Program-made: the position numbers and the translations under genes | Part shown: in pieces, positions 1 through 47,735 of the stretch | Layout: each line of letters opens with the position of its first letter | Position numbering within the stretch: position 1 is the first letter of the stretch | Origin: Acanthamoeba sp. SK_2022b | Lineage: Eukaryota > Discosea > Longamoebia > Acanthamoebidae | Direction of reading: 5' to 3' | Length of the DNA stretch: 64,000 nucleotides | NCBI GenBank assembly: GCA_027943245.1 | Contig: JANDJZ010001750.1 | Span: 1-64,000, forward strand | The notes under the pieces: model-generated | Database searches by the model: none | What the model was told of the DNA's origin: nothing | What the model saw: only the letters and a program-made list of their open reading frames with translations

Positions 1-125
1 ATGACAGGTTACTCTTTATCCCAGTACATCTACGGAGGGATAAATTTCAGCCGTCATGTTTCAATTTTCAGCTTGTTCCAGATTGTTAAAGAGCAATATC
101 TTAAACATGACTCGCAAGTCATCTT
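1..125 (-). other. rRNA spacer/leader-like sequence with boxA, left edge
   Basis: Read on the minus strand this stretch carries TGCTCTTTAACA (84-95), the boxA antitermination element of rRNA operons, followed by ATCTGGAACAAGCTGAAAA-type sequence (about 58-83). As I recall it, that sequence follows boxA in the 16S-23S spacer of Serratia and Yersinia rather than in the 16S leader. Further on, TTATCCC (16-22) pairs with GGGATAA (37-43) and ATGAC (1-5) with GTCAT (53-57), a processing-stem-like fold. An rRNA operon adjoins yrdA in E. coli, so an rRNA gene probably lies just left of the window on the minus strand. No rRNA gene body is inside the window. Confidence 0.6.
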
Positions 126-314
126 TAAGATTTTTTCGGTCTGTCGTGACCGGTGATAATGTCTTTCACTCATTATCCACACTTTTCAGCCCTTCCGGGT
201 GGATCTTGTGCGATCAGGGCCATTTTCCGCAGGATCCGGCGCTGCTGTTGGTTGTAATTCCATCGCCAGAGTCTAGTATTGCCGGTAAATATGATCCCGA
301 CGTGAGGCAGCATT
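126..314. other. Intergenic stretch without a recognised gene
   Basis: No convincing coding region is present. On the minus strand I looked for the expected rRNA P1/P2 promoters (TTGACA-like and TATAAT with a GC-rich discriminator) and did not find them. A single TTATCCACA at 173-181 matches the DnaA-box consensus but is isolated. The promoter of the following plus-strand gene should lie here, but I cannot place it. Confidence 0.5.
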
Positions 315-10164: not shown

Positions 10165-10547
10165 TACTTCTCCTCCCGGGTGAATTTGCCATCCAATGCA
10201 CGCTGATATTCGCCATGCAAGAAATCCGTACTCATCCCAGCCTGACGTAATCGATGCTCCAGCAGCGCCATGCGTTTACTGAGTTCGACATAATCCGGAT
10301 GCTCACTGCTAATCCCTTGCAGCAAGCGAGCAACGGTCAACGCCTCTTTGCGATCTTCCAACTCCGGTGGAAGGTAACCGGCATTTTTCAGCAGACGGTA
10401 ACCGGCGCGTAGCTCAGCCGGCACCGCGCTGTCATCTTCCAGCGTCAACGGTTGGCCCTGGCCGGGCAGATTGTCGAACTCGCCTTTATCCCAACATATA
10501 ACCCCCATATCGGGAGTATTGTTCGAAAGGCAAAAAAGGCCTGCCAA
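10164..10547 (-). pseudogene. yhdN: YhdN-like DUF1992 protein, 5' end replaced
   Basis: From about residue 21 (KGEFDNLPGQGQPL) to the C-terminus this matches the DUF1992 family (ELRAGYRLLKNAGYLPPELE, LRQAGMSTDFLHGEY). The family's first ~20 residues (a helix with an AERHI-type motif before KGEF) are missing. In their place the frame runs into DNA resembling an S10-operon leader (MAGLFCLSNNTPDMGVICWD). The break lies near 10488. In E. coli yhdN directly follows rplQ, the last gene of the alpha operon, which is absent here. Function of the family is unknown. I treat it as truncated, although translation from an in-frame ATG is possible. Confidence 0.75.
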
Positions 10548-10596
10548 TCGACTGATTCGCTAAAATCAGGCTTACCAAGATTAGGTAAGCCCGCGC
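10488..10596 (-). promoter_or_regulatory. S10-operon-type leader without its operon
   Basis: Downstream of the TATAAT box the minus strand holds a series of hairpins: GCTTACC/GGTAAGC (10570-10590), CTGATT/AATCAG (10551-10568), AGGC/GCCT around an A/T-rich loop (about 10529-10543) and CTCCC/GGGGG (about 10502-10516). Location directly downstream of bfr and the hairpin series agree with the L4-regulated leader of rpsJ (S10 operon) in enterobacteria. rpsJ does not follow; the leader runs into truncated yhdN. Confidence 0.6.
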
Positions 10597-10624
10597 ATTA
10601 TACGCAAAATGGCCCAGGAAGCAA
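10597..10624 (-). promoter_or_regulatory. Ribosomal-type promoter (probable S10 promoter)
   Basis: On the minus strand TTGCTT (10619-10624), a 16-base spacer and a perfect TATAAT (10597-10602) are followed by the GC-rich discriminator GCGCGGGC typical of stringently controlled ribosomal promoters. It lies where the S10 operon promoter is expected, just after bfr. Confidence 0.65.
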
Positions 10625-10791
10625 GCCGCAGTTGGAAATATGCTCAGGAAATCGTCATTTTTGAGCGTTCAGCGGCAGTCGCGAGATGAGGACGGCTAAC
10701 AGGGTATGAATTATGCTTGGCGGGGAAGCTCCCCTGCCCCACCGTAAAAACGGTCGCCGGCAGGAGAGACGATGACGAACGGAAGACAGGC

Positions 10792-11271
10792 TTACTCTTT
10801 GCGCTCTAGAACCTGGGCCTGGGCATAGTTTTGAATACCGAGGCGAGCGATCAGATCCAGCTCGGTTTCCAGCCAGTCGATATGCTCTTCTTCATCGGCC
10901 AGGATATCGATCATCAAATCGCGGCTGACGTAATCATGAATCGAGTCGGCATAGGCGATACCTTCACGCAGGTTTTTAGCGCCTGCCAGCTCCAGCGCCA
11001 GATCGGAACGCAGCATCTCTTCAATGTCTTCGCCGATGTTCAGCTTGCCGAGATCCTGCAGGTTAGGGAGCCCTTCCAGGAACAGGATACGCTCGATGTA
11101 GCGATCGGCATGCTTCATTTCGTCGATCGACTCGTGGTATTCCTTGTCGTTGAGGCGCATTAAGCCCCAATTCTTGAACATGCGGGCGTGCAGGAAATAT
11201 TGATTGATGGCAACCAGCTCGTTGCCGAGCAGCTTGTTGAGGTGAGCAATGATCTTTTTATCGCCTTTCAT
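10792..11271 (-). CDS. bfr: Bacterioferritin
   Basis: 24-mer haem-containing iron storage protein with ferroxidase activity. 159 residues. All expected ligands are present: E18, E51, H54, E94, E127 and H130 for the di-iron site, and M52 for haem. The ATG at 11269-11271 follows a GGAG-type ribosome site; the frame upstream to 11319 is not needed. A partial bfd lies upstream. In relatives bfr is followed by rpsJ. Confidence 0.96.
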
Positions 11272-11464: not shown

Positions 11465-11733
11465 GGTATTTGTTCGGTTAATTCAACGAAGTGATTATAG
11501 CCGACGACAGTGATTTTGTGCGAGAAATGACCAACCAATCCCCGGGCTTCCAGGTCGTCCTGCAGCGCGTAAAGGGATATGGGGGCGGCGAGCAGCAATT
11601 CAAGATGGGCGCTGCCGGCAAGGCCGGCAAGCACACCGTCCTGCAGCAGCAGCAGCGCGTCGCCCTCGGCCGTCAGGCGCAGCAGCGCAGGTAAGTCACA
11701 TTGGTTTGGCGAATGGCTCAGGGTATATAGCAT
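11461..11733 (-). CDS. tusB: Sulfur-relay protein TusB, 3' end altered
   Basis: Subunit of the TusBCD complex that passes persulfide sulfur from TusA to TusE for 2-thiolation of U34 in Lys, Glu and Gln tRNAs. The N-terminus ([20 protein letters not shown]) and middle are normal. The protein has 90 residues against about 95, and the usual C-terminal tail ending in AW is missing: after FVELTE the frame reads QIP-stop and is already within bfd-derived DNA. The junction with bfd lies around 11463-11475. Confidence 0.82.
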
Positions 11734-15018: not shown

Positions 15019-15033
15019 GGGCCCGCCATGCGT

Positions 15034-16206
15034 TTATTTCAGGCGTGCCAGCCCTGCGACGGCACGCTCGAGATACCGGCGCGGGCATCCCAGGTTGATG
15101 CGGATAAAACCGCTCCCCTGCGGGCCGAAACCGCTGCCCATCGACGGCGCCAGCTTCGCCACCGCCACCAGCGCCTGCTGCAAGTCAGCATCGTTCAAAC
15201 CCAGCGAGCGGCAATCCAGCCAGGCGAGATAGGTCCCTTCAGCCTGGGTCATCGTGCACCAGGGCGCGGCGTCCGCCAGCGCCTGCTTAAACCAACGCCG
15301 GTTCTCCGCCAGGTAGTCGAGCAGCTCATCAAGCCAGGCCGCGCCCCGTTGATAGGCCGCGGTCGCCGCCGTCATCGACAACGCGTTGAACACATCCAGC
15401 CCGTGGGCGTTCAGCCGATCGACAAACGCCTGCCGAAGCCGGGCATTGGGGATCAGGAAATTCGAAATGCGCAGCGAGGAAAGGCCGAACGTTTTGCTGG
15501 CGGACGTCGCCGCAATGACCCGCTCGCGATATTCCTCGCCCAGATGCAACACCGACGTAAACGTCTCGCCGGGCAGCAGCAGATCGGCCCAAATTTCATC
15601 GGAGATCACCGTGACGTCGTGGGCGTGGCAGAGCGCCATGAGCCGCTCCAGTTCATCACGGCGCCAGCAACGGCCGGTCGGGTTGTGCGGATTGCACAGT
15701 AACAACAGCGGCGGTTTACGCTGCGCCAGACAGGCGGCCAGCTGGTCGAAATCGATCCGGTATCCCTGCGGGGTTTCCAGCAGCGGGTTTTCAATCACCT
15801 CTCTGCCGTTCATGGTGACTATCTTGGCGAACGAGCCATAATACGGCCCCTGCACCACCACGCCATCCCCCGGCTTGCTGAGCAGTTGGATCAGCATCGC
15901 CAACCCCGGCACTACCCCTTCAATCGACGTGAACCATTCGCGCCGCAGCGGCAAGCCGTGCCGCTTGGCAAACCAGTCGATCGCCGCCTCATAGTAAGCG
16001 TCGTCGCGTTCGCTGTAGCCAAAGACGCCGTGGTCCACCCGCTGATGCAGCGCCTGCTGCACCTCCGGCGGGCACGGAAAGTCGAAATCGGACACCCACA
16101 TCGGCAACAGTTCACTGCCGTCCAGTTGCAGATAGCGGTCGATGAAGTCCCACTTCACGGAGCCGGTGTTGTGGCGATCGATGATGGCGTTGAAATGACT
16201 CGTCAT
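15034..16206 (-). CDS. PatB/MalY-type pyridoxal-phosphate C-S lyase
   Basis: 390-residue fold-type I PLP enzyme of the cystathionine beta-lyase MalY/PatB group. The start MTSHFNAIIDRHNTGSVKWD and WVSDFDFPCPPEV are typical; the PLP lysine is in SASKTFGLSSLR, and CNPHNPTGR and SDEIWADL line the cofactor site. It cleaves C-S bonds of cystathionine, cysteine or cysteine conjugates to pyruvate, ammonia and a thiol; the true substrate is unknown. Its ATG comes one base after the stop of the transporter gene (TGAcATG), so they are co-translated. Confidence 0.9.
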   Translation of the reverse strand: MTSHFNAIIDRHNTGSVKWDFIDRYLQLDGSELLPMWVSDFDFPCPPEVQQALHQRVDHGVFGYSERDDAYYEAAIDWFAKRHGLPLRREWFTSIEGVVPGLAMLIQLLSKPGDGVVVQGPYYGSFAKIVTMNGREVIENPLLETPQGYRIDFDQLAACLAQRKPPLLLLCNPHNPTGRCWRRDELERLMALCHAHDVTVISDEIWADLLLPGETFTSVLHLGEEYRERVIAATSASKTFGLSSLRISNFLIPNARLRQAFVDRLNAHGLDVFNALSMTAATAAYQRGAAWLDELLDYLAENRRWFKQALADAAPWCTMTQAEGTYLAWLDCRSLGLNDADLQQALVAVAKLAPSMGSGFGPQGSGFIRINLGCPRRYLERAVAGLARLK

Positions 16207-16207
16207 G

Positions 16208-17647
16208 TCAGGCTTCCTTACGCTGCAAGTCGTTCTGAGGTTGGAGTTTGGCGATACCGAAGCCGGTGAACCCATAAATCAGGGCGAACACCACCGCGGC
16301 ATAACATTGGATCGCCCACGGCAGCAGATCGAGGGTGCTGACCCCCAGCGTGGTGGCCATGTAAATGCCGGCGGCCGTCCACGGGATCAGCGGTTCAATG
16401 ACGGTGCCCGCATCTTCGACGGTGCGCGACAGATTTTTGTTGTCCAGCCCCATGCGTCGATAGGCCCCTTTGAACAGTTCCGCCGGGATCAGCAGCGCCA
16501 GCTTGCCGTCGCTGGTCGCGCCGGTCACCAGGATAGTGGTGGCAACGGTGGCGGCGATCAGCTGGCCGGTGGTGTGCACCACTTTCAGCAGCCGGCTGAT
16601 GATCACCGTCAGCGCGCCGGTCAGCGTCAGGGCGCCGGCGAAGGAAAAGGCGCAGAACACCAGCAGGATCGTACTCATCATCGAGAACATGCCGCCGCGG
16701 TTCAGCAGGCGCGGCACATCGGCGACGATCCCTTCGACGTTATGGCCCTGAGTGGCGAACATCGACAGATTGAAGCCGTCCATCAACGCATTCAGCCCCT
16801 GCTGCAGGCTAAAGCCCTGCAGCGCGACGCCGATGGCGATCGCCAGCGCGCAGGCGGCCAGCATGACGGGGATCACCGGCCGTTTGGTCACCGCGCCCCA
16901 CAGCACCAGCACCGGCGGCAGGATCAGCAGCAGATTGAAGTGGTACAGCCCCTCGAGCGCACCGACAATTTCGGTCACTTTTTCGGGCGTTGCCACGCTG
17001 CCCACCGCACCGGTGTGGCCGGCGATCAGGTACACCACGGCGGCCAGGATAAAACTCGGCAGCGTCGTGTACATCAGATGCTGGATATGGCTGTAGAGAT
17101 CGGTATCCGCAACGATAGCCGCGAAGTTCGTCGAATCGGACAACGGCGAAATTTTGTCGCCGAAGTAAGCGCCGGACACCACCGCCCCGGCCGCGGCGGC
17201 CAGCGGCACGTCCAGACCGGCGGCCACGCCCATCAGCGCCACGCCCACGGTGCCGGCCGCCCCCCACGAGGTGCCGGTGCACACCGAGATCACGCTGGTG
17301 ATGAAGAACGCGGCGATCAGAATGTATTGGGGGCTGATCAGCTTCAGCCCCCAATACACCATGTAAGGGATGGTGCCGCTGATCATCCAGGTGCCGATCA
17401 GGCCGCCCACGCAGATCAGGATCATGATCACCGGCATCGCCTTCGCCAGCTTGGCCACGATGGCCTCGATGATGTCGTCCCAGCGGTAGCCTTGCCACCA
17501 GGCTAACGCCGCGGCGATGGCGGCGGAAACCAGCAGCAGCGGTTCAATGCGCAGGCCAAACTGGCCATAGCCGATGATGAGCAGCAACAGCATGGCCACA
17601 ATCGGCAGCGTCGCCAGCCCAAGGTTGAGCGTTTTCTTATTATCCAT
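16208..17647 (-). CDS. NhaC-family antiporter
   Basis: 479-residue inner-membrane protein with about 11-12 hydrophobic segments and the NhaC-family core TGTSWGAAGTVGVALMG and GAYFGDKISPLSDSTN. The family includes Na+/H+ and malate/lactate-Na+ antiporters, so ion-coupled transport of a small organic ion is possible. Because it is coupled to a C-S lyase gene and preceded by a LacI-type operator, I infer uptake of the lyase's sulfur substrate or export of its product. The start MDNKKTLNLG follows AGGAG. Confidence 0.88.
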   Translation of the reverse strand: MDNKKTLNLGLATLPIVAMLLLLIIGYGQFGLRIEPLLLVSAAIAAALAWWQGYRWDDIIEAIVAKLAKAMPVIMILICVGGLIGTWMISGTIPYMVYWGLKLISPQYILIAAFFITSVISVCTGTSWGAAGTVGVALMGVAAGLDVPLAAAAGAVVSGAYFGDKISPLSDSTNFAAIVADTDLYSHIQHLMYTTLPSFILAAVVYLIAGHTGAVGSVATPEKVTEIVGALEGLYHFNLLLILPPVLVLWGAVTKRPVIPVMLAACALAIAIGVALQGFSLQQGLNALMDGFNLSMFATQGHNVEGIVADVPRLLNRGGMFSMMSTILLVFCAFSFAGALTLTGALTVIISRLLKVVHTTGQLIAATVATTILVTGATSDGKLALLIPAELFKGAYRRMGLDNKNLSRTVEDAGTVIEPLIPWTAAGIYMATTLGVSTLDLLPWAIQCYAAVVFALIYGFTGFGIAKLQPQNDLQRKEA

Positions 17648-17729
17648 ATACGGCTCCTGTTGAAGATGGGGTACTGCAACAGCGTAATGGCTTCGGTAAT
17701 TGGAGGATGTGAGCGCAGGCAACCGGCCA

Positions 17730-17743
17730 TGTAATCGGTTTCA
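17730..17743 (-). promoter_or_regulatory. Candidate GalR/LacI-type operator
   Basis: TGTAATCGGTTTCA fits the TGTAANCGNTTNCA pattern bound by GalR-like regulators. It lies between the regulator's stop and the antiporter start, where control of the antiporter-lyase pair is expected. Assigned by pattern only. Confidence 0.5.
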
Positions 17744-17769
17744 TGAGATGGCGTTGTGTGAGCCGTCTC

Positions 17770-18798
17770 TCATTCACCGCGCTTGCTTTGCTCATGCGGT
17801 TCGCCGTCGGCTACGGAGTCTCGCAGGATAAGTTCGGCCGAAAAGCGGTTGTTTCGTGGCGCGACGTCGCTGCCGCTGTGAATCTGTAGCGCCAGGCGCG
17901 CGGCACGCCGAGCCATTTTCTCGATGGGATAATGCACGGTGGTCAACGCAGGGTGGAGATACTTCGCCAGGGCAATGTCGTCAAAACCGACGATCGACAG
18001 CGCCTCAGGCAGCTGAATGTGCCGTTGGTGGCAGGTGCGCATCATGCCGGCGGCCATTACGTCGTTGAAGGTCACTGCGGCGGTGAAGCATGGGTCGCTG
18101 GCCAGCACGCGCTCGGCCGCCAGTTCGCCCCCTCGCTCGTTGAAGGGCACGCTGATGATCCAGCTGCCGGGTACCTCAATGCCGGCGGCGGCCATGGCCT
18201 TGCGGTAACCCGCTAACCGCTGCGCGCGATCGTCGATCGGCAGATCCGCCGTCACGCAGGCAATTCTCCGATGCCCCTGGCGTATGAGCAACTCGGTCGC
18301 CGTCTGCGCCGCATTGGCGTTGTCGAGCCAGATGCAACGGTTGGCGATGGCGGGCAGATAACGATTGATCAGCACCAGCGCAGGCGTGTGGGCGGCGTAG
18401 CGCAGCAGCTCCTCCTCCCCCATGCGCGTGACGTGCGCCACGATGGCTTCGCATCCCTGGTTGATGAGAAAATCGAGGCCGCTTTTTTCCAGCTCGGCCT
18501 GATGCCCGCCGCTGCACAACATCAACCGCACGCCGGCCTGCCGCGTGATGTCTTCCACGCCCCGCGCCAGGCGTGAAAAAAACGGATCGTCGAGGTTGCC
18601 GGTCAGCAATCCCAGCATATTGCCGCTTCTTTTCGCCAGCGCCAGCGCGGCGGCGTTGCGATGGTAGTTAAACTCGCGCATCGCTTTCTCGACGCGTTCG
18701 CGGGTCACCGGTTCAACATAGGCGGTATTATTGATCACCCGGCTGACGGTGGCCGTGGAAACGCCGGCGCGGCGCGCAACGTCTTTCATGGTGGCCAT
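17770..18798 (-). CDS. LacI/GalR-family regulator of the lyase cassette
   Basis: 342 residues: N-terminal helix-turn-helix (MATMKDVARRAGVSTATVSRVIN) and hinge helix (ALALAKRSG), then a periplasmic-binding-protein-like sensor domain (GLLTGNLDDPFFSRLARGVE ... IVGFDDIALAKYLHPALTTV). The ligand is unknown. It points the same way as the antiporter and lyase genes, which it probably controls through the site at 17730-17743. Confidence 0.9.
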   Translation of the reverse strand: MATMKDVARRAGVSTATVSRVINNTAYVEPVTRERVEKAMREFNYHRNAAALALAKRSGNMLGLLTGNLDDPFFSRLARGVEDITRQAGVRLMLCSGGHQAELEKSGLDFLINQGCEAIVAHVTRMGEEELLRYAAHTPALVLINRYLPAIANRCIWLDNANAAQTATELLIRQGHRRIACVTADLPIDDRAQRLAGYRKAMAAAGIEVPGSWIISVPFNERGGELAAERVLASDPCFTAAVTFNDVMAAGMMRTCHQRHIQLPEALSIVGFDDIALAKYLHPALTTVHYPIEKMARRAARLALQIHSGSDVAPRNNRFSAELILRDSVADGEPHEQSKRGE

Positions 18799-18841
18799 GG
18801 CATGTCCTGTTGTGCCGTTCGGCGCCCGGTGCGCCGCGCAT

Positions 18842-33040: not shown

Positions 33041-35119
33041 ATGTGGCGCCGCCTGATCTACCACCCGGAAATCAACTACGCACTGCGACAAACGCTGGTG
33101 TTGTGCCTGCCGGTGCTGTTCGGCCTGCTGATAGGCCAGCTGCAGCTCGGCCTGATGTTCTCCCTCGTGCCCGCCTGCTGCAATATCGCCGGGCTGGATA
33201 CGCCGCATAAGCGCTTCTTTAAACGACTGATCGTCGGCGGTTCGCTGTTCGCCTTCAGCAGCGTGCTGCTGCAACAGGCCCTGCTGTGGCACGTGCCGCT
33301 GCCGGCGCTGATGCTGGGCCTGGCGCTGCTGCTCGGCGTCACCGGCGAAATCAGCCCGCTGCACGCCCGGCTGTTGCCGGCGGCGCTGGTGGCCGCCATC
33401 TTCGCCCTCAGCACGGCCGGCACGGTGCCTATCTGGCAGGCGCCGCTGCTGTACGCGATCGGCACCGCCTGGTATGGCTTATTCACCTGGTTCTGGTTCA
33501 AGCTCTGGAAAGAGCAGCCGATGCGCGAGACGCTGAGCCAGCTCTACCTGGAACTGGCGGACTATTTCGAAGCCAAATACTCGCTGCTGACCCAGCACAC
33601 CGATCCGCAGACCGCGCTGCCGCCGCTGCTGGTGCGCCAGCAAAAGGTGATGGACCTGATCAGCCTGTTGTACCAACAGCTTAATTTCCTGCCGCACGCC
33701 AACAATCTCGAGCAAAAGCGCCTGCAGCGCGCCTTTCAGGTGGCGATGGACCTGCAGGAGCACATCACCGTCAGCCTGCATCTGCCGGAAGAGGTGCAAA
33801 AACTGGTGGAGCAGAGCCAGGCCGAAGCGATCATTCGCCGCAATGCTCAGGTGATCGCCGGCCGGCTGCGCGTGGTGGCGCACGATATTCTCTATCATCA
33901 ACATTCGAAGCGCTTCTCCATGACCCACGAGCTGGCGGCGCTGGAAAAAATGGCGGCGCAGCATCCCGATAACCCGGTCGGCCAGTTTTGTTATTACCAC
34001 TTCAGCCGTATCGCCCGCCTGCTGCGCACCCAGCATCCGCTGTACCGCCGCGACCTGATGCCCGGCCAGCACCGCCTGCCGTTTTGGCCGGCGCTGGTCA
34101 GCTATCTGTCGTTCAAATCCACCGCCCTGCGCAACGCCGCGCGGCTGGGCGTAACGCTGGCGGTCGGCAGCAGCCTGGGTGCGGTATTCAACCTGCCGAA
34201 GCCTTACTGGATCCTGCTCACCATCATGCTGGTGAGCCAAAACGGGTATAACGCCACCCGGGTGCGTATTCAGCACCGTGCGCTGGGCACGATTGCCGGG
34301 CTATTGCTGGCAGCCGGGCTGCTGCAGCTGCAGTTGCCGGAGGGAGAAACGCTGAGCATCATGCTGGTGATCACGCTGCTGGCCTACCTGGTTTCGCGCA
34401 AGAACTACGGGCTGTCGGTGATTGGCTTTACGGTCACGGCGGTTTACACCCTGCAGCTGCTGGCGCTGAACGGCTCGCATTTTCTGGTACCGCGCCTGAT
34501 CGATACGCTGATCGGCTGCGTGCTGGCGTTCGGCGGCACCATTTGGCTGTGGCCGCAGTGGCAAAGCGGGCTGCTGCGCAAGAATGCCCATCAGGCGCTG
34601 GAGAACGATCAAGCCGCGCTGCGGCTGATGCTGAAGCAACCGGAACCGGACGCCACCGCGTTGGCCTATACCCGCATGCAGGTCAACCAGGCACACAACG
34701 CGCTGTTCACCTCGCTCAATCAGGCGATGCAAGAGCCGGGGTTCGCGTCAAACTATCTGGCGGACATGCGGCTGTGGGTCACTCACAGCCAGTTCATCGT
34801 CGAACACCTGAACGCCATGACCATTCTGGCACGCGAGCACTACATGCTGACGCCGAAACTGGCGGAAGAGTATCTGCAGACCTGTGAAATCGCGCTGCAA
34901 AGCTGCCAGCAGCGGTTGGAATACGACGGCCCGAGCAGCGGCAACAGCGGCATCATGCAGCCGCCGGATCTGCATCCGGACATGCCCGTTACCGAGATGG
35001 AGCGCCATCTGCGGCGCATTTTGTCGCACCTGAGCGTGATGCACACCATTTCGTCGCTGGCCTGGCGCCAGCGCCCGCACCACGGCATCTGGCTCAAGCG
35101 CAAACTGCGCGATCAATAA
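33041..35119 (+). CDS. yhfK: YhfK, FUSC-family inner-membrane protein
   Basis: 692 residues (E. coli about 696). Two clusters of hydrophobic helices (about 15-150 and 370-500) flank cytoplasmic domains, the layout of fusaric acid resistance/YccS-like proteins. It may export aromatic acids, but this is inferred from the family. It directly follows the crp terminator. Confidence 0.9.
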   Translation: MWRRLIYHPEINYALRQTLVLCLPVLFGLLIGQLQLGLMFSLVPACCNIAGLDTPHKRFFKRLIVGGSLFAFSSVLLQQALLWHVPLPALMLGLALLLGVTGEISPLHARLLPAALVAAIFALSTAGTVPIWQAPLLYAIGTAWYGLFTWFWFKLWKEQPMRETLSQLYLELADYFEAKYSLLTQHTDPQTALPPLLVRQQKVMDLISLLYQQLNFLPHANNLEQKRLQRAFQVAMDLQEHITVSLHLPEEVQKLVEQSQAEAIIRRNAQVIAGRLRVVAHDILYHQHSKRFSMTHELAALEKMAAQHPDNPVGQFCYYHFSRIARLLRTQHPLYRRDLMPGQHRLPFWPALVSYLSFKSTALRNAARLGVTLAVGSSLGAVFNLPKPYWILLTIMLVSQNGYNATRVRIQHRALGTIAGLLLAAGLLQLQLPEGETLSIMLVITLLAYLVSRKNYGLSVIGFTVTAVYTLQLLALNGSHFLVPRLIDTLIGCVLAFGGTIWLWPQWQSGLLRKNAHQALENDQAALRLMLKQPEPDATALAYTRMQVNQAHNALFTSLNQAMQEPGFASNYLADMRLWVTHSQFIVEHLNAMTILAREHYMLTPKLAEEYLQTCEIALQSCQQRLEYDGPSSGNSGIMQPPDLHPDMPVTEMERHLRRILSHLSVMHTISSLAWRQRPHHGIWLKRKLRDQ

Positions 35120-35139
35120 GGGCGCGGCATGCCGCGCCC
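35120..35139. terminator. Palindromic hairpin between yhfK and argD
   Basis: GGGCGCGGCA (35120-35129) and TGCCGCGCCC (35130-35139) form a perfect 20-bp palindrome between convergent genes. No T-run. Confidence 0.5.
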
Positions 35140-35159
35140 CGTTATATGCCGCGCGGGCT

Positions 35160-36401
<1,242 letters not shown>

Positions 36402-36438
36402 TCAGCGCTATCGTAATGTTAGATTGAAAACATAATCA

Positions 36439-36456
36439 CGAAATATGCATAAAAAA
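36439..36456 (-). promoter_or_regulatory. Candidate ARG box upstream of argD
   Basis: AAATATGCATAAAA matches the A/T-rich TATGCATA core seen in enterobacterial ArgR sites and lies 60-80 bases before argD. Assigned by motif and position only. Confidence 0.4.
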
Positions 36457-36508
36457 CCAATCAAGCGCAAACGCAAAACGCCTGACGGGCGAAAAAAACG
36501 CACCGGAA

Positions 36509-37084
36509 TTAACGCTTGAGGAAATTATCCAGCAGCTGGTGGCCCTGCTCGCTGAGCACGCTTTCCGGATGGAACTGCACGCCTTCCAACGCCAAAGTGC
36601 GGTGGCGGATGCCCATGATCTCGTCGCGCACGCCGTCGCGCTCGCTCCAGGCGGTCACTTCAAAACAGTCCGGCAGCGTATCGGCTTTCAGCACCAGCGA
36701 GTGATAGCGGGTCACGGTCAGCGGATCGCTCAGGCCACGAAACACGCCGACGCCCAGGTGACGAATCGCCGAGGTTTTGCCATGCATCACCGCGCGGGCG
36801 CGCACCACCTCGGCGCCGAACGCCTGCCCCAGCGCCTGGTGCCCCAGGCACACGCCGAGGATCGGCAGCTTGCCGGCGAAATGACGAATGGCGGCCAGCG
36901 AGATACCCGCTTCGTTCGGGGTACAGGGGCCAGGGGAAATCACCAGATGCTGCGGCGCCAGCCGCTCGATATCGGCCAGCTGCAGCTCATCGTTGCGCTT
37001 CACCAGCACCTCGGCGCCCAATTCGCAGAAGTACTGGTAAAGGTTATAGGTAAAGGAGTCGTAGTTATCGATCAGCAGCAGCAT
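36509..37084 (-). CDS. pabA: Aminodeoxychorismate synthase glutaminase PabA
   Basis: Supplies ammonia to PabB for p-aminobenzoate (folate). 191 residues; catalytic Cys79 in [10 protein letters not shown] and His/Glu in VQFHPES. The start [11 protein letters not shown] at 37082-37084 is canonical, and the frame upstream is extra. fic and yhfG, its neighbours in E. coli, are absent. Confidence 0.94.
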
Positions 37085-37156
37085 GTTAGGTCCGGCAGAG
37101 AAAAATGCCGCCACAGTGTACTGATTTAACCCGCCGCTGCCGACGATAATTTCCGC

Positions 37157-38683
37157 TTACTTTTTACGGCCGCCGGTGATCGACCCCAGCACGCCGCGCA
37201 GGATCTGGCGGCCGAGATCGCGCGCCATGCTCTTGGCGGCGGTCTGGACGATGCCGTCGCGCTTGCCGCCGCGCGGGCCGGTGGAACCGAACAGCAGCTC
37301 GTTCAGGCCGTCCATCAGGCCGCCGCCCGCCTGCTGTTGTTGCTGTTGCGCCTGCGGTTGCTGCCCCTGCTGCGGGGTGCCGACGGTGGCGAAGCCGCCC
37401 GACGACAGCTTCTCGTAGGCGGATTCGCGGTCGATCATATCCTCATAGCGGCCATACAGCGGCGACTTGTTGATCGCGCTGTTCAGCCCTTCCGCACCGA
37501 GCATGCCCATTTTGGATTCCGGCGCGATCACCATCGCCCGCTCCACCACGTTAGGCCGGCCCTTCTCGTCGAGGAATGACACCAGCGTTTCGCCCACGCC
37601 CAGCTCGGTGATCACCGTTTCGGCATCGAAGGCCGGATTGGCGCGCAGGGTTTGCGCCGCCGTCTTCACCGCCTTCTGATCGCGCGGAGTAAAGGCGCGC
37701 AGCGCATGCTGTACGCGGTTGCCCAGCTGGCCCAGCACGCTGTCCGGAATGTCCAGCGGGTTCTGGGTGACGAAGTAAATGCCGACGCCTTTGGAGCGGA
37801 TCAAACGCACCACCTGTTCGATCTTGGTCAACAGCGCCGCCGGCGCATCGTTGAACAGCAGGTGCGCCTCATCGAAGAAGAACACCAGCTTCGGCTGTTC
37901 AGGGTCGCCCACTTCCGGCAGGTGCTCAAACAGCTCGGCCAGCAGCCACAGCAGGAATACCGAATACAGCTTCGGCTGATTGATCAGCTTGTCCGCCGCC
38001 AGCAGGTTGATCACGCCGTGACCGTTGGCGTCGGTTTTCATCAGATCGTTGATGTCCAGCATCGGCTCGCCGAAGAACTGGTTGGCGCCCTGCTCTTCCA
38101 GCGTCAGCAACCCACGCTGGATGGCGCCGATCGACGCGGCAGAGATATTGCCGTACTGGGTCTGGAATTGTTTGGCGTTGTCGCCGACGAACTGCACCAT
38201 GGCGCGCAGGTCCTTCATGTCCAGCAACAGCAGCGCATTGTCATCGGCGATCTTGAACACCAGCTGCAGCACTCCGCTTTGCACCTCGTTCAGATCCAAC
38301 AGGCGCCCCAGCAACAGCGGCCCGAGATCGGAAATCGTGGCGCGGATCGGATGGCCCTTTTCGCCGTAAATATCCCACGGGATAATGGTGCAGGCCTGCG
38401 GCTGCCAGTCGGTGACGCCGATCGCCGCCAGGCGCGCCTGCAGTTTCTCGGAAGGCACGCCCTCGGCGCCGATGCCGGACAGATCGCCCTTCACGTCGGA
38501 CAGGAACACCGGCACGCCGATGCGCGAGAACTGTTCGGCCATTTTCTGCAGCGTCACCGTCTTGCCGGTGCCGGTTGCCCCGGTGATCAGCCCGTGGCGG
38601 TTGGCCAACGCCGGCAAAATCACCAGATCCTGCTCCGGTTTTCCGTCTTTCATCGCTTTGGCGATAATCCGTGGTTCACTCAT
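37157..38683 (-). CDS. yjgR: YjgR-type HerA-like ATPase (DUF853)
   Basis: 508 residues. Walker A GATGTGKT (35-42), Walker [11 protein letters not shown] and a Gln/Pro/Gly-rich low-complexity segment ([18 protein letters not shown]) before the basic C-terminus. The family is a putative hexameric DNA translocase/helicase of unknown role; inhibitor or phage-defence links of HerA relatives do not transfer automatically. The start MSEPRII is chosen. Confidence 0.9.
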
Positions 38684-38834
38684 TTTCTGTTCCTTTGACG
38701 CTGACGCAGCGCGAAACGCGCCTGTTGATGCAATAAAGCTATAAGCGCCGCGTAACCCCGTCAAGGACAAACAAAAAGGGCGCCGTCGGGATGCCCATGA
38801 TGCCTGTCTTTTCAGAATCCCCCTAAGACCTGCG

Positions 38835-39560
38835 TCACCCCCGCAGCCCCAGTTGCTCTTTCAGCGCCTTCAAATAGCGTCGGCTGACCGGCACCGGATC
38901 GCCGGCCGACATGATCATCTCCGCTGCGCCACCCTCTTCGAAGCGGATCTCGCGCACCTGCTCCAGGTTGACCAGATACTGCCGATGGCAGCGCACCAGC
39001 GGCGTACGGCTTTCCAGCGTGCGCAGCGTCAGCTCGGTGAAACACTCCATGCCGTCGCTGCGCACCACGAAGACCCCGCTCAGTTTGGAACGGATCGCCA
39101 GCACTTCATCGAACCGCAGCAGGTAGATGCGGCTGTGGCCGGTGCAGGGAATGTATTTCAGGTAACCGGCGCTCTCTTCCAACGCCGCCACGTCCTGCGG
39201 TGCCCTGCGCTGCCGCAGGCGTTGCAGCGTCTTGCTCAGCCGCTTCGGCTCCGCCGGCTTCAGCAGATAGTCGAAGGCATGCTCCTCGAACGCCTGCACC
39301 GCGTATTCGTCGTAGGCGGTCAGAAACACGATGTGCGGCATGCGGTTGGGATCCAGCATGCCGACCATTTCCAGCCCGCTGATGCGCGGCATCTGGATAT
39401 CGAGAAACACCACGTCCGGCTGCAGCCGGTGGATCTGGCTGATGGCTTCGATGGCGTTGGCGCATTCGCCGATAATCGCGATCTCCGCCTCGGCCTCCAG
39501 CAGATGGCGCAGGTTGTCGCGCGCGGAAGGTTCATCGTCAACAATCAGTGCGTTTAACAT
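38835..39560 (-). CDS. btsR: Response regulator BtsR (LytTR type)
   Basis: 241 residues: receiver with D54 ([10 protein letters not shown]) and Lys in LLKPAEP, then a LytTR DNA-binding domain ([16 protein letters not shown] to the end). In E. coli BtsS/BtsR senses pyruvate and induces the transporter btsT. Its ATG overlaps the btsS stop. Confidence 0.93.
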
Positions 39561-41245
39561 CAGGCGGCCCTCTCCATGGGGACATTGAGCGTAATGCGGG
39601 TGTAGGCGTCCGGCCGGCAATCCACCTGCACGCCATAGCCTTCGCCGTAGCGCACGCGAATGCGTTTATCCACCAGATTCATCCCCAGCCCGCTGCAGTT
39701 CGGTTTCGGCTGGAACAGCCCGGCGTTGTCCGTCACCTGCAGCAGCAGATGCTCGCCTTCGCAGCAGGCGCCGATTTCGATGCGACCCACGCCCAACAGA
39801 TGCGAGGTGCCATGCTTGATGGCGTTTTCGACGATTGGCTGCAGCGAGAACGCCGGCAGCCGCACCGCCAACAGCGCCTCCGGCAGCGATACCGCGATCT
39901 CCAGCCGATCGGCGAAGCGCGCTTTCTCGATCTGCAGGTAGGCGTTCACGTGTTCAATCTCATCCGCCAGGCTGACTTCGTCATCCGAGCGTTTGAGGTT
40001 TTTACGAAAGAAGGTCGAGAGGGACTGCACCAGATCGCAGGCGCGCTCGCCATCGCGGCGGATCACCGCCACCAGGGTATTCAAGGCATTGAACAGGAAA
40101 TGCGGATTGACCTGCGCATGCAGCAGCTTGATCTCCGACTGCGCCAGCAGCTGCTTGTGGCGCTCGTACTGTCCGGCCATGATCTGCGCCGACAACAGGC
40201 TGGCGATGCCTTCGCCCAGCGTACGGTTGATGGTGCTGAACAGCTGGCTTTTCGGTTCGTACAGTTTGATGGTGCCGATCACCCGCTGGTTTTCGCCGCG
40301 CAGCGGGATCACCAGCGTCGAACCCAGCTTGCAGGCCGGGTTGATCGAGCAGCAATAAGAGAGCTGATTACCGTCGGCGTACACCACCTCGTTGTTGTCG
40401 ATGGCGCGATGCGAATGCACCGAGGCGATCGGCGTGCCCGGCAGGTGATGATCGTCGCCGATGCCGATAAACGCCAGCAGCTTGTCGCGATCGGTGATCG
40501 CCACCGCGCCGATGCCCAGCTCCTGATAGATCACCCGGGCGACCTTCATGCTGTTCTCCTGATCGAACCCCTGCCGCAGGATGCCCTCGGTGCGCTCGGC
40601 TATCTTCAGCGCCTTGGAAGAGAAGGCGCTGGTGTATTTTTCGAACATCGCGCGCCTATCCAGCAGGATTTGCATGAACATCGCCGCGCCGACGGTATTG
40701 GCGATCATCATCGGCAGCGCGATGTGCTCCACCAGCTGCAACGCTTCGTCGTAAGGGCGCGCCACCGCCAGGATGATCGCCATCTGCAGCACTTCCGCCA
40801 CCAGCGCCACGCCGCCGACGAACAGCGGATTGAACAGCAGCTCGATGCGCCCCCGGCGCATGGCGATGCTGTGCACAATGCCGCCGACCAGGCCTTCCGA
40901 CACCGTGGAAATCGCGCAGGCCACATCGGTCATGCCGCCGAGCGTATACCGGTGCAGGCCACCGGTCAGCCCGACCAGAAAGCCCACCGACGGCCCGCCC
41001 AGCAGCCCGCCCAGGACCGCGCCTATCGCGCGGGTGTTGGCGATCGAATCCTGAATGTGCAGCCCGAAATAGGTGCCCATGATGCAGAACACCGAGAAGA
41101 TCACGTAGCACAGCAGCTTGTGCGGCAGGCGAATGGTCACCTGCATCAGCGGGATGAACAGCGGGGTTTTGCTCAGCAGATAGGCGATAACGAGATAGAC
41201 GCACATCTGCTGCAGCAGCAACAGCACCTGGTTAAATTCATACAT
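39560..41245 (-). CDS. btsS: Histidine kinase BtsS (pyruvate sensor)
   Basis: 561 residues as in E. coli: six membrane segments (5TM-5TMR_LYT type, about 1-195), a GAF-like region, and a LytS-type kinase with the phosphorylated His in [11 protein letters not shown] (H382) and the ATPase motifs VENAIKHG and GLGMNLV. Partner of the adjacent btsR. The target btsT is not in the window. Confidence 0.94.
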
Positions 41246-41401
41246 GGCAGCAACTCATCCAGAGACAACAAAGGGCGAACGCCGGATTTCCGGTCTGATT
41301 ATTGTCTGCCGATTAGAGCATGGGGCGCGGGAGAAAACAGTGATGAAGGCAAGGCTTCGGGAGGAAGGAGCGGCCGATCCCGGCGGGATCGGCCAAAAAA
41401 C

Positions 41402-41971
41402 TTACGGCAGTACCTTGGCCGACAGAATCACCACCGGTTTGGTCGGCACATTCTGGTAAGGGCCGACGTTGCCGGTCGGCACCTGGGCAATTTTGTCCAC
41501 CACGTCCATGCCTTTCACCACTTTGCCGAACACCGCGTAGCCGAAGTCACGCTGGCCGTGATCCAGGAAGGCGTTATCCGCCACGTTCAGGAAGAACTGG
41601 CTGGTGGCGCTGTCCTTGTCGGCGGTGCGCGCCATCGAGATGGTGCCGCGCAGGTTGCGCAAGCCGTTGTCGGCTTCGTTCTTGATCGGCGCCTTGGTGG
41701 ATTTTTGCTGCATGTCAGCGGTGAAACCGCCGCCCTGGATCATAAAGCCCGGGATCACGCGGTGGAAGATGGTGTTGTTGTAGTACCCGCTGTTCACGTA
41801 GTCGACGAAGTTCTGGCTGGAAACCGGTGCCTTCTGGCTGTCGAGCGCCAACTCGATATTCCCCGCCGAGGTCGTCAGCATGACGTGGGTCTCACCGGCG
41901 GCGAGTACGGCTGGCGCCACTGCGGTCAGGGAACACAGCGCGACGAAGGTCACTAAAGTACGTTTGAACAT
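41402..41971 (-). CDS. ppiA: Periplasmic peptidyl-prolyl isomerase PpiA
   Basis: Cyclophilin-type isomerase. 189 residues with signal peptide ([20 protein letters not shown]) and the cyclophilin core ([28 protein letters not shown]). The start MFKRTLV gives the signal peptide. In E. coli its expression depends on CRP/CytR or Cpx. Confidence 0.95.
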
Positions 41972-42230
41972 TAACGGGTCCTTTCTCTGAGAGACAAACA
42001 ACGGAAAAGCGCTTTGATTCTAAAGAGCTGTATCGGCAAGTGCCAGCCATTTACCTATATTTACCCAATTACGGGACATATCCTAGGCGGCCCTGAATTT
42101 TGCTGCGGAAAGTATGGGCGCAGAAGACTTTTTTGCCAACCGCATCACGCATTTTTTGCCCCGCGCCACCCTGGGTCGGTTTTTGCGATCTGCCTCCCAG
42201 TTTGCACACGCATTGTCGTTACTCTATTTA
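41972..42230. other. Divergent ppiA / beta-glucoside operon intergenic region
   Basis: About 260 bases without a gene, A/T- and T-tract-rich (TTTTTT runs near 42129 and 42152), unlike the GC-rich coding flanks. It holds the promoters of ppiA and of the IIA operon. The plus-strand frames within it lack a family match. Confidence 0.45.
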
Positions 42231-42248
42231 AATGAGAGCGCTCTCATT
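42231..42248. promoter_or_regulatory. Perfect 18-bp LacI-type operator
   Basis: AATGAGAGCGCTCTCATT is an exact palindrome, of the central-CG type bound by LacI-family repressors. It lies 64 bases before the IIA start, where the promoter is expected. The likely binder is the regulator encoded at 44041. Confidence 0.75.
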
Positions 42249-42312
42249 ATAAAAAGAACGGATACTGAAGCATCCCACGGCGGCGTCGCCGCGCAACCCC
42301 TGGAGAAATGAC

Positions 42313-42663
42313 GTGAGTGAATTGATGACTGAAGTCAGCCCCGAGTTTGAAAGCACCATCATGGAACTGCTGGTGTTCTCCGGCAGCGCGCGCAGCAATG
42401 CGTTGATGGCGCTGCGGCAAGCGCGCGCCGGCGACTTCGCCGCCGCGGCCAAGCACATGGCCGAATCCAAAGAATGGGTGAAGAAGGCGCACCTGATCCA
42501 GACCGAGCTGATCGGCCTGGACGAAGGTTGCGGCAAGCTGGCGATCAACCTGATCACCGTGCATGCGCAGGACCATCTGATGAACGCCATGGTGATCCAG
42601 GATCTGGCCGACGACATGATCGAGCTCTATCGCCGTCAGTCGCAGACGGAGGGCCGCCCATGA
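42313..42663 (+). CDS. PTS lactose/cellobiose-type IIA component
   Basis: 116 residues of the all-helical Lac/Chb IIA family; the phosphorylated His is in ITVHAQDHLM (H84 as first His). A GTG at 42313 follows GGAG; an in-frame ATG lies 12 bases in. It carries phosphate from HPr to a IIB that is not encoded here. It overlaps the glycosidase gene by 4 bases (ATGA). Confidence 0.9.
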   Translation: MSELMTEVSPEFESTIMELLVFSGSARSNALMALRQARAGDFAAAAKHMAESKEWVKKAHLIQTELIGLDEGCGKLAINLITVHAQDHLMNAMVIQDLADDMIELYRRQSQTEGRP

Positions 42664-43967
42664 GCACGCTCAAAATCGCCGTGATCGGCGGCGGCAGCAG
42701 CTACACCCCCGAACTGGTGGACGGGCTGATCCAGCGCATCGAGGAGCTGCCGGTCACCGAACTGGCACTGGTGGACGTCGAACCGGGCCGGCAAAAAGTG
42801 GAAACCATCGCCGCCCTGACCCGCCGCATGCTGGCGCGCCACGGGCTGGAGCAGGTGAAGGTCAGCGTGCACTTCGCGCTGGACGACGCCATTCGCGACG
42901 CCGCTTTCGTGCTGACCCAGTTCCGCGTCGGGCAACTGCCGGCACGCGCCGCCGATGAACGGCTGGGCCTGAAATATCAGCTGCTCGGCCAGGAGACCAC
43001 CGGCGTCGGCGGCTTCGCCAAAGCGCTGCGCACCATCCCGGTGATGCTGGATATCGCTCGCCGGGTGGAAAAGCTGGCGCCCGACGCCTGGATCATCAAC
43101 TTCACCAACCCGGCCGGCATCGTCACCGAGGCGGTGTCTCGCTTTACCAAAGCGAAGATCATCGGCCTGTGCAACGTGCCGATCAGCATGCATCACATGA
43201 TCGCCAACATGCTGCAGGCACCTTACGCCGACGTACAGCTGCAGTTCGCCGGCCTGAACCACATGGTCTGGGTGCATCAGGTCACGCACCTGGGGCGCGA
43301 CGTCACCGCCAAGGTGATCGACATGCTGTGCGACGGTGCGGCGCTGACCATGAACAACATCAAGGAAGAGCCCTGGCAGCCGGACTTCCTGCGCGCGCTC
43401 GGCGCGATCCCCTGCCCGTACCACCGCTATTTTTACCAGACCCGCGAGATGCTGGCGGAAGAGATGGCCGCCGCCGGCGAGCGCGGTACCCGCGCCGAGC
43501 AGGTGATGCAGGTAGAAAAAGAGCTGTTCGAGCTGTATGCCGATCCGCAGTTAAACACGAAACCGGAGCAGCTCAGCTTCCGCGGCGGTTCTTTCTATTC
43601 CGAAGTTGCGCTGGAGCTGATTCGTGCTATCCATAATAATCTCGGCACGCAATTAGTGGTCAACACCGCAAACCGCGGCGCAATCCATGGCCTGCCGGAC
43701 GATGCTGTGATAGAAATCAACTGTATCGTCGATGCTCAGGGCGCACACCCGCTGACCTTCGGCCCGCTGCCGGAGCCGATGCAGGCCCTGACGCAGCAGG
43801 TGAAAGCCTACGAACGTCTAACCATCGAAGCCGCGGTGCACGGCGATCGCCGCAGCGGGTTGCTGGCGCTGATCGCCAACCCGTTAGTGGGCAACGCCAA
43901 CCTGGCGCAGCCGCTGCTGGACGAGGTGTTGACGATAAACGCGCCGTATTTGCCGCAGTTCAGGTAA
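42660..43967 (+). CDS. GH4 6-phospho-beta-glucosidase
   Basis: 435-residue glycoside hydrolase family 4 enzyme (ChbF/LicH-like). The NAD+ loop GGGSSYTPEL, then NPAGIVTEA, GLCNVP with the metal-ligand Cys, and HMVWVH are seen. GH4 enzymes need NAD+ and Mn2+ and cleave phosphorylated disaccharides such as cellobiose-P or chitobiose-P. The ATG overlaps the IIA stop. Confidence 0.92.
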   Translation: MSTLKIAVIGGGSSYTPELVDGLIQRIEELPVTELALVDVEPGRQKVETIAALTRRMLARHGLEQVKVSVHFALDDAIRDAAFVLTQFRVGQLPARAADERLGLKYQLLGQETTGVGGFAKALRTIPVMLDIARRVEKLAPDAWIINFTNPAGIVTEAVSRFTKAKIIGLCNVPISMHHMIANMLQAPYADVQLQFAGLNHMVWVHQVTHLGRDVTAKVIDMLCDGAALTMNNIKEEPWQPDFLRALGAIPCPYHRYFYQTREMLAEEMAAAGERGTRAEQVMQVEKELFELYADPQLNTKPEQLSFRGGSFYSEVALELIRAIHNNLGTQLVVNTANRGAIHGLPDDAVIEINCIVDAQGAHPLTFGPLPEPMQALTQQVKAYERLTIEAAVHGDRRSGLLALIANPLVGNANLAQPLLDEVLTINAPYLPQFR

Positions 43968-43989
43968 GCGGCTATACGCAGCCAGACAG

Positions 43990-44017
43990 GGGTTCGGCGC
44001 GCCGAACCCATTTTTTT
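43990..44017 (+). terminator. Terminator between glycosidase and regulator
   Basis: GGGTTCGGCG (43990-43999) and CGCCGAACCC (44000-44009) form a perfect palindrome followed by T7 (44011-44017). It would limit read-through into the regulator gene. Confidence 0.85.
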
Positions 44018-44040
44018 AGCCGTAATTCAGGAGTGGGACG

Positions 44041-45021
44041 ATGGTGACACTGGAAGATGTCGCGGCGCTGGCGGGCGTTTCGCGCGCCACCGTATCGCGC
44101 GTGGTGAACGGCGACAGCAACGTCAAGGCGCCGACCCGCGAGAAGGTTGAACGCGCCGTCGCCCAGCTCGGTTATACCCCCAACCCGGCGGCCCGCGCGC
44201 TCGCCTCCAGCCACAGCAATACCCTCGGACTGGTCACCACGTCGTACCGCGGCGGCTTCTTCGGCGCGCTGATGGACTTCGTGCAGACCGAGGCCGAATC
44301 CCACGGCAAACAGCTGCTGGTGACCCAGGGCCGCAACAGCGCCGAAAACGAATGGCAGGCGATACAGCGGCTATTTAGCCTGCGCTGCGACGGCGTGATC
44401 CTGCACGTGCGTTTTCTCAGCGACGATCGGCTGCGCCAATTGGCGGCGGAACAACGTGATTTCGTGTTGCTCGATCGTCTGGTACCGGGGCTGGAAGCCC
44501 GCTGTGTCACCTTCGATCACCCGCTCGCCAGCCGCATGGCGACGCAGCAACTGCTCGATGCCGGGCACCGGCGCATCGCCTGCATCAGCGGCCCGCGTGA
44601 GCGCCCGTCGAGCCGCCTGCGGCTGCAGGGGTTTGAAGAGGCAATGCAGGCGGCGAATATCGAACCGGTGGCCTGCCTGGAGGGCGTCTACGATCTGGAA
44701 AGCGGTTACCGCTGCGCCGATCGACTGCTGCAGCAAGCCTCGCGGCCCAGCGCCATCTACTGCTGCAACGAAGAGATGGCGATCGGCGCGCTGCTGGCGA
44801 TCAACGAGCACCGCCTGCGGGTGCCGCAAGATATCTCCTTGATCTGCTACGACAGCGGCGAACGCGCGCCTTTCGTGCGCCCGGCGTTGAGCAGCGTCCA
44901 TTTTCCCATCAGCGAGATGGCCCAATACGCGGCGCGCAGGCTGATCGACCCCGCCACCCCGGCGCACCGGTTTGAGCCGACGATAGTCAACCGTGATTCC
45001 ATTGTGACGGTACGCAAATAG
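44041..45021 (+). CDS. LacI-family repressor of the beta-glucoside operon
   Basis: 326 residues: helix-turn-helix VTLEDVAALAGVSRATVSRV, hinge ARALASSHSN, and a sugar-binding domain (GLVTTSYRGGFFGALMDF ... ISLICYDSGERAPFVRPAL). It is separated from the GH4 gene by a strong terminator, so it must be read through or have its own promoter. Probably binds 42231-42248. Confidence 0.92.
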   Translation: MVTLEDVAALAGVSRATVSRVVNGDSNVKAPTREKVERAVAQLGYTPNPAARALASSHSNTLGLVTTSYRGGFFGALMDFVQTEAESHGKQLLVTQGRNSAENEWQAIQRLFSLRCDGVILHVRFLSDDRLRQLAAEQRDFVLLDRLVPGLEARCVTFDHPLASRMATQQLLDAGHRRIACISGPRERPSSRLRLQGFEEAMQAANIEPVACLEGVYDLESGYRCADRLLQQASRPSAIYCCNEEMAIGALLAINEHRLRVPQDISLICYDSGERAPFVRPALSSVHFPISEMAQYAARRLIDPATPAHRFEPTIVNRDSIVTVRK

Positions 45022-46419: not shown

Positions 46420-46446
46420 AGGGCGCCCGCAAGGCGCCCTTTTTTT
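46420..46446 (+). terminator. tsgA terminator
   Basis: AGGGCGCC (46420-46427) pairs with GGCGCCCT (46433-46440) around CGCAA, followed by T7. Confidence 0.9.
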
Positions 46447-46451
46447 GCGCC

Positions 46452-47735
46452 TTAGCGCCGAAAATCCACCGTCTCATCCTGCTGCAAATGCAGCGTGGTT
46501 TCCGCCGGCCGCGTTTCGGCGATCACCGCTCCCTGGCGAATCGAATAACGCACCGGCGTCTGGCGGCGCACCGCGTCAAAGCCGCTTTCCGCCGGCAGGA
46601 TCACCAGGTTGGCGCTGTTGCCGGCCGCCAGGCCGTAGTCGCTCAGGTTAAGGGTGCGCGCGCTGTGGTGGGTGATCAGCTTCAACCCATCGTCGATCTG
46701 GCCATAGCCCATCAGCTGGCACACGTGCAGCCCCATATGCAGCACCTGCAGCATGTTGGCGGTGCCGAGCGGGTACCAGGGATCGAACACGTCGTCATGG
46801 CCGAAGCAGACGTTGATCTCTGCCTCCAGCATCTCCTTCACCCGCGTCACGCCGCGCCGTTTCGGGTAGCTGTCGAAGCGCCCCTGCAGGTGAATATTCA
46901 CCAGCGGGTTGGCGACGAAGTTGATGCCGGACATTTTCAGCAGGCGGAACAGCCGCGAGGCGTAAGCGCCGTTGTAAGAGTGCATCGCCGTGGTGTGGCT
47001 GGCGGTGACTTTCGCCCCCATCTCCAGCTTCAACGCCAGCGCCGCCACGGTCTCGACGAAGCGCGATTGCTCGTCGTCGATTTCATCGCAGTGCACGTCC
47101 ACCAGCCGATCGTATTTTTGCGCCAGCGCGAACGCCTTATGCAGCGACTCCACGCCGTATTCGCGGGTGAATTCGAAGTGCGGAATGGCACCCACCACGT
47201 CGGCCCCCAGCCGCAGCGCCTCTTCAAGCAGCGCTTCGCCATTAGGATAGGAAAGGATCCCCTCCTGCGGGAAGGCGACGATCTGCAGCGTCACCCAGGG
47301 CGCCACCTCCTGCTTCACCTCCAGCATGGCACGCAGCGCGGTCAGCGTGGGATCGGAAACGTCGACGTGGGTGCGCACATACTGCACGCCGTTGGCGATC
47401 TGCCACTTGAGCGTTTGCCAGGCGCGCTGTTTGACGTCTTCATGGGTCAGCAACGCTTTACGTTCGGCCCAGCGCTCAATGCCCTCGAACAGCGTGCCGG
47501 ACTGGTTCCAGGCCGGCTGACCGGCGGTTTGCGTGGTATCCAGGTGGATATGTGGTTCGACGAACGCCGGCAACGCCAGCCCGCCCTGCGCATCCAACAC
47601 GTCGCTGCGCCACTCCTGCCCTTCCGGCTGCGGCACCAGATGCGCGATGCGCCCCTGTTCGATCGCCAGTTGCCACAACCCTTCATGCCCGCTTAAACGC
47701 AGGTTGTCGATAAACTTCAATGGACGTTTCGCCAC
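46452..47735 (-). CDS. codA: Cytosine deaminase CodA
   Basis: Converts cytosine to uracil and ammonia. 427 residues as in E. coli. The amidohydrolase metal site HIHLD (near residue 61), DVHCDEID and the Asp in [13 protein letters not shown] are present. The permease gene codB, its operon partner in E. coli, is absent; this copy sits between tsgA and nirB. Confidence 0.93.

Follow-up and report, generated by a model that had tools for sequence, protein, structure and literature searches.

Why are the S10-spc-alpha ribosomal-protein operons missing between yhdN and bfr in a stretch of enterobacterial DNA? The window, by which we mean the whole 64,000-bp stretch analyzed here, comprises bases 1–64000 of contig C314 (152,584 bp), in a mixed assembly of 44,949,280 bases and 1,129 contigs. 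In alignments, blocks of this contig are 95–98% identical to Serratia marcescens 106R (NZ_VFMJ01000001), and from base 178 to the contig end their order is collinear with that of 106R. The normal enterobacterial order, seen in 106R, Klebsiella pneumoniae and K. aerogenes, is yhdN, S10-spc-alpha, bfr, bfd, tufA-fusA-rpsG-rpsL and tusBCD; E. coli K-12 has the same yhdN-to-tusBCD order, with gsp and chiA inserted. The window carries the same flanking genes in identical order and on identical strands, but lacks both translation blocks and, at the left end, the 16S gene. A preliminary description of this DNA had reported the operons missing between bfr and yhdN, a gap of about 14 kb if they were lost, and the comparison with 106R confirms their absence, at 13,942 bp. 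The observation is larger in extent than was first reported: the description saw this joint correctly, and missed two further joints as well as the way in which the losses relate to E. coli similarity.

Three flush joints in the window

Relative to 106R, the window contains three flush joints, at 177/178 (J0), 10490/10492 (J1) and 11469/11470 (J2), which truncate bfd, tusB and yhdN (Table 1). C314 contains no N over its whole length of 152,584 bases. Because the blocks flanking each joint are long and 95–98% identical to 106R, chance resemblance can be set aside; the shortest block beside any joint, the 16S-23S spacer, has 177 bases.

Table 1. Features at the joints of the window, with the evidence for each
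Feature	Position	Strand	Evidence or content
16S-23S rRNA spacer remnant	1..177		106R and S. liquefaciens spacer matches
J0, flush joint	177..178		tRNA-Glu, 16S rRNA and leader missing
yhdN without its first 16 codons	10164..10490	-	ORF and 106R alignment
J1, flush joint	10490..10492		13,942 bp (S10-spc-alpha operons) missing; alignment to 106R
Promoter and first part of S10 leader	10492..10624	-	106R alignment
bfr, complete	10792..11271	-	ORF; S. marcescens protein 99% identical
bfd without its first 23 codons	11345..11469	-	106R comparison
J2, flush joint	11469..11470		4,773 bp (rpsL, rpsG, fusA, tufA) missing; 106R alignment
tusB without its last 7 codons and stop	11470..11733	-	ORF and 106R comparison

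At J1, window base 10490 corresponds to 106R position 4985601 and base 10492 to 4971658, and the single base between them, 10491, aligns to neither side. The loss runs from inside the S10 leader, 79 bp upstream of rpsJ, through codon 16 of yhdN; the earlier estimate for the truncation of yhdN, about 20 codons, is too high by this comparison. The promoter hexamers described before the S10 leader do lie at 10597–10624. At J2, window base 11469 corresponds to 106R 4970676 and base 11470 to 4965902.

The left end of the window is occupied by what remains of an rRNA operon. Bases 1–99 match 106R 4998243–4998145 at 97%, so that window base 1 is 106R 4998243, and bases 1–177 match an S. liquefaciens spacer, the matched part of which stops 3 bases before tRNA-Glu. 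On the other side of J0, window base 178 corresponds to 106R 4995913, a position that lies upstream of the 16S leader. Since J0 unites the DNA from both sides of a 16S gene in correct order, the uncut contig probably spanned the rRNA operon, which would favor cutting after assembly. At gathering thresholds, an Rfam search of the window returned nothing. Among the records related to this region, NC_021742.1, a 44-kb entry filed as an S. liquefaciens plasmid, holds tuf, coaA, birA, murB, tRNAs and rRNA at 33500–44107 and looks like a piece of chromosome.

Other departures from 106R look like ordinary strain differences. A 3.8-kb insert at 15024–18824, between slyX and slyD, is absent from 106R and encodes a malY-like aminotransferase, an nhaC antiporter and a LacI-type regulator; related gene sets occur on many Serratia plasmids, at ~77% identity. 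Three 106R blocks of 0.65–1.0 kb each are absent from C314. Those of 669 and 652 bp, missing at window 38789–38834 and 46445–46453, each look by eye like a small toxin-antitoxin pair.

Loss and retention in relation to E. coli identity

The losses track likeness to E. coli, not gene function. We ranked by identity the matches of at least 1 kb to E. coli, using 532,004 E. coli bases and, from 106R, only stretches whose presence in the assembly was established, a number of which had been selected as tests; the rRNA matches lie outside the span of this ranking. Of its 20 matches, ranks 1–4 (90.9, 90.7, 90.6 and 89.1%) had been removed and the other 16, all at or below 86.6% identity, had been kept, the highest of these being rpoD. 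The third-ranked removed match is the tufB copy of the tufA block ranked fourth, and 19 matches are left without this duplicate. A blind pick of three from those 19 would yield the top three once in 969.

Several matches also begin or end at or near the joints. With default megablast, the E. coli K-12 match on 106R at 4971659–4985446 (90.9%) starts at the right edge of J1, which is the match start in all five S. marcescens-complex genomes compared. The str match (4965825–4970522, 89.1%) nearly covers the J2 loss. The rRNA matches, that of the K-12 16S at 4995914–4998190 and that of the 23S from 4998245, meet the right edge of J0 and the start of the contig, respectively.

Predictions made from E. 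coli identity were borne out for long matches. A cut at rplM-rpsI (106R 5184375–5185492, 90.7%) was predicted in advance and then found on contig C321, where the flanks join at 106R 5184373 and 5185490 and their alignments overlap by 2 bases. The retention of rpoD (1,867 bp, 86.6%) also matched prediction. Cuts predicted at rpsU (324 bp, 90.4%) and rnpB (376 bp, 94.4%) are absent, each gene lying inside an unbroken 8-kb match at 98%, which indicates that short matches were spared. Short matches to E. coli tRNAs (77–85 bp, 97–100%) were likewise kept, on C309 and C367.

Less similar sequences were retained in two further cases. A 1,250-bp tail of rpoC, 85% identical, remains on C312, and the remainder of rpoBC has no enterobacterial match in the assembly. 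On C735, which belongs to another bacterium, S10 and str genes that give matches of 72–78% were kept. This second bacterium has 60–66% G+C and, with gene names assigned by reading, its S10-operon and str genes stand in normal order. Bacterial-looking rRNA-polymerase and tuf genes occur also on C1005, C1047 and C186, and an S10 match on C797 is divided, with 62 bp between its two pieces, as an intron might divide it.

Some Serratia stretches of lower identity are missing too. The fis-mreB stretch, intended as a kept control (fis, accBC and mreB are 84–86% identical to E. coli), has no match in the assembly, and the nusA-pnp stretch, below the identity cut-off, is also absent from it. The atp operon and glmU-glmS, which would lie beside C315 and fall below the cut-off as well, gave no Serratia-type match in the assembly. 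Near position 144870, C315 keeps Serratia-like rsmG and mnmG, though their 106R neighbors atp and glmU-glmS are absent; the gap beside C315 may be a further cut or a contig rearrangement. Low-identity stretches of this kind may have been excised, discarded with entire contigs or left unassembled.

Cut edges, missing copies and rival explanations

When cut edges are compared with the ends of default megablast alignments, 4 of the 8 that can be measured fall within 1 base and 5 of 8 within 3. The high edges of J1 and J2 overshoot the end of the K-12 match by 154 and 153 bp, and the low edge of J2 lies 78 bases inside the K-12 match, though only 5 bases away from where the matches of two other E. 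coli records start. Of the references tried, K-12, K. pneumoniae and K. aerogenes included, none fits every edge. The matches of these three all begin at the right edge of J1 and end ~150 bp short on the high sides. Matches of Trabulsiella and Franconibacter share the J1 right-edge start, and those of other genera begin 29–46 bases earlier. Thus, the right edge of J1 points to Enterobacteriaceae and not to E. coli alone.

The lost DNA was then sought in the rest of the assembly. No Serratia-type copy was found there of the str block, queried whole with its flanks, or of S10-spc from 106R 4971573 to 4981350 (S10 leader to secY), a query that covered 9.7 of the 13.9 kb. Both queries returned the flanks on C314 itself at 97–100% and otherwise matches of 63–79% on other contigs, which we read, as a group, as other organisms or paralogs. 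The search for rpsJ that the preliminary description had proposed is included here, and no Serratia-type rpsJ is present. That description had also proposed looking for relatives with yhdN beside bfr. This adjacency occurs in none of 80 stretches, and yhdN itself was found in none of them; they surround the bfr genes of the best 80 of 338 Bfr matches, with each species represented by one genome and the DNA reaching at most 10 kb downstream of bfr. Within the same set, rpsJ lies no more than 2 kb from bfr in 75 loci; in 5, from three Rahnella and two Chimaeribacter, the gsp cluster directly follows bfr. For E. coli and its relatives, the preliminary description had placed the ribosomal genes between bfr and yhdN; in K-12 a gsp cluster additionally separates rpsJ from bfr. 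The normal order is also seen in two Klebsiella records.

These results bear directly on whether the operons were truly relocated within the genome of this strain. Nothing but the joints themselves favors relocation; parts of the Serratia genome are absent from the assembly, such that a moved copy could be unassembled. However, the 16S gene, str, S10-spc-alpha and rplM-rpsI would all have to have moved, with edges at the ends of E. coli alignments, and in doing so would have truncated bfd, tusB and yhdN. No relative's stretch has the resulting gene order, and no intact Serratia copies lie elsewhere for the parts queried, in an assembly whose Serratia part is incomplete. On the assembly searches, the C321 cut and the relatives, we reject relocation as extremely improbable. 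It is no more credible that, in some Serratia lineage, the 16S gene and the ribosomal-protein operons had moved as precise blocks to a second replicon lacking here. Deliberate removal of ribosomal genes by annotation would account for the content of the blocks cut from the window, which are rRNA and translation genes. Yet rpsU was kept, as were the ribosomal operons of the other bacterium on C735, and we take these to rule such removal out; moreover, the cuts ignore gene borders and left the rpoC tail behind. Its probability is as negligible as that of relocation.

Somewhat more weight, though still little, goes to a filter acting before assembly, in which E. coli-like reads were discarded, the flanks scaffolded across the gaps and the Ns stripped later. 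Filtering of reads also fits a loss governed by E. coli identity and the sparing of short matches, which longer reads would bridge, and the overshoots of 153–154 bp at two edges fit it better than they fit the cutting of contigs. However, it should blur the edges by about one read length, yet half of the measurable edges lie within a base of alignment ends, and it requires a second event in the stripping of Ns. Less probable again is that a second enterobacterium was co-assembled, and that long conserved blocks shared by both genomes acted as repeats and dropped out. There are several bacteria in the assembly and only long conserved blocks were lost, as this idea predicts. But a collapsed repeat should persist as a contig of its own, and the S10 and str queries turned up none; assemblers, moreover, generally break at repeats instead of joining their flanks flush.

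Excision by a similarity screen as the probable cause

The explanation that we favor, with a probability of about 0.86, is that S10-spc-alpha and the other missing blocks were lost when a Serratia marcescens-like contig went through a similarity-based contaminant screen and the flanks were butted together. What was lost depends on the identity and length of the E. coli match and pays no heed to gene borders, and short matches and the ribosomal genes of less similar bacteria were spared, as would be expected if spans were removed and the flanks then joined. In such a process, a similarity screen would flag long E. coli-like spans in the Serratia contig, the flagged spans would be cut out, and the DNA on either side would be joined end to end. 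Cutting probably acted on finished contigs and not on reads, and the screening reference would have been E. coli or a near enterobacterium. The matches kept and lost suggest a minimum match length for the screen, somewhere between 376 and about 1,100 bp. The size of the assembly and the divided S10 match on C797 suggest that the host is a eukaryote carrying bacterial passengers. Counting against this explanation are the retention of rpsU and rnpB despite predicted cuts, the edges of J1 and J2 that no reference tried fits throughout, and the missing stretches below the identity cut-off; neither the edges nor these stretches favor a biological relocation. The missing ribosomal-protein operons are therefore most likely an assembly artifact and not a biological feature, and the living bacterium would likely still carry them. 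The preliminary description had already preferred a stripped or edited assembly to a real relocation, and in this it is supported by the assembly search, the relatives and the joint on C321.

Excision of this kind has consequences for how mixed assemblies are read. Bacterial DNA inside another organism's assembly can mimic a genome that lacks its most essential genes, and checks based on rRNA or ribosomal-protein markers would miss such trimmed bacterial passengers. Joined flanks, in turn, create false gene neighbors and truncated genes. Such trimming could be tested for quickly by ranking the losses by their identity to E. coli. Our literature search on the over-removal of conserved genes found no paper, and we make no claim that the effect is unreported.

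The closest known procedure is the screening of eukaryotic assemblies for common contaminants. The sequence set 'contamination in eukaryotes' contains E. coli. As given in Table 1 of PMC7794651, this screening uses megablast against that set, with at least 90% identity and a match longer than 200 bp. The printed rule (90% over 200 bp), applied unchanged, does not reproduce what is seen here: rnpB, at 376 bp and 94.4%, was kept, and so was rpsU, a borderline case. Joining of the flanks, as found in the window, is not described in the passages of PMC7794651 that set out the screen. In those passages, contaminant-like spans are likewise detected by megablast identity and length, and are then masked or removed.
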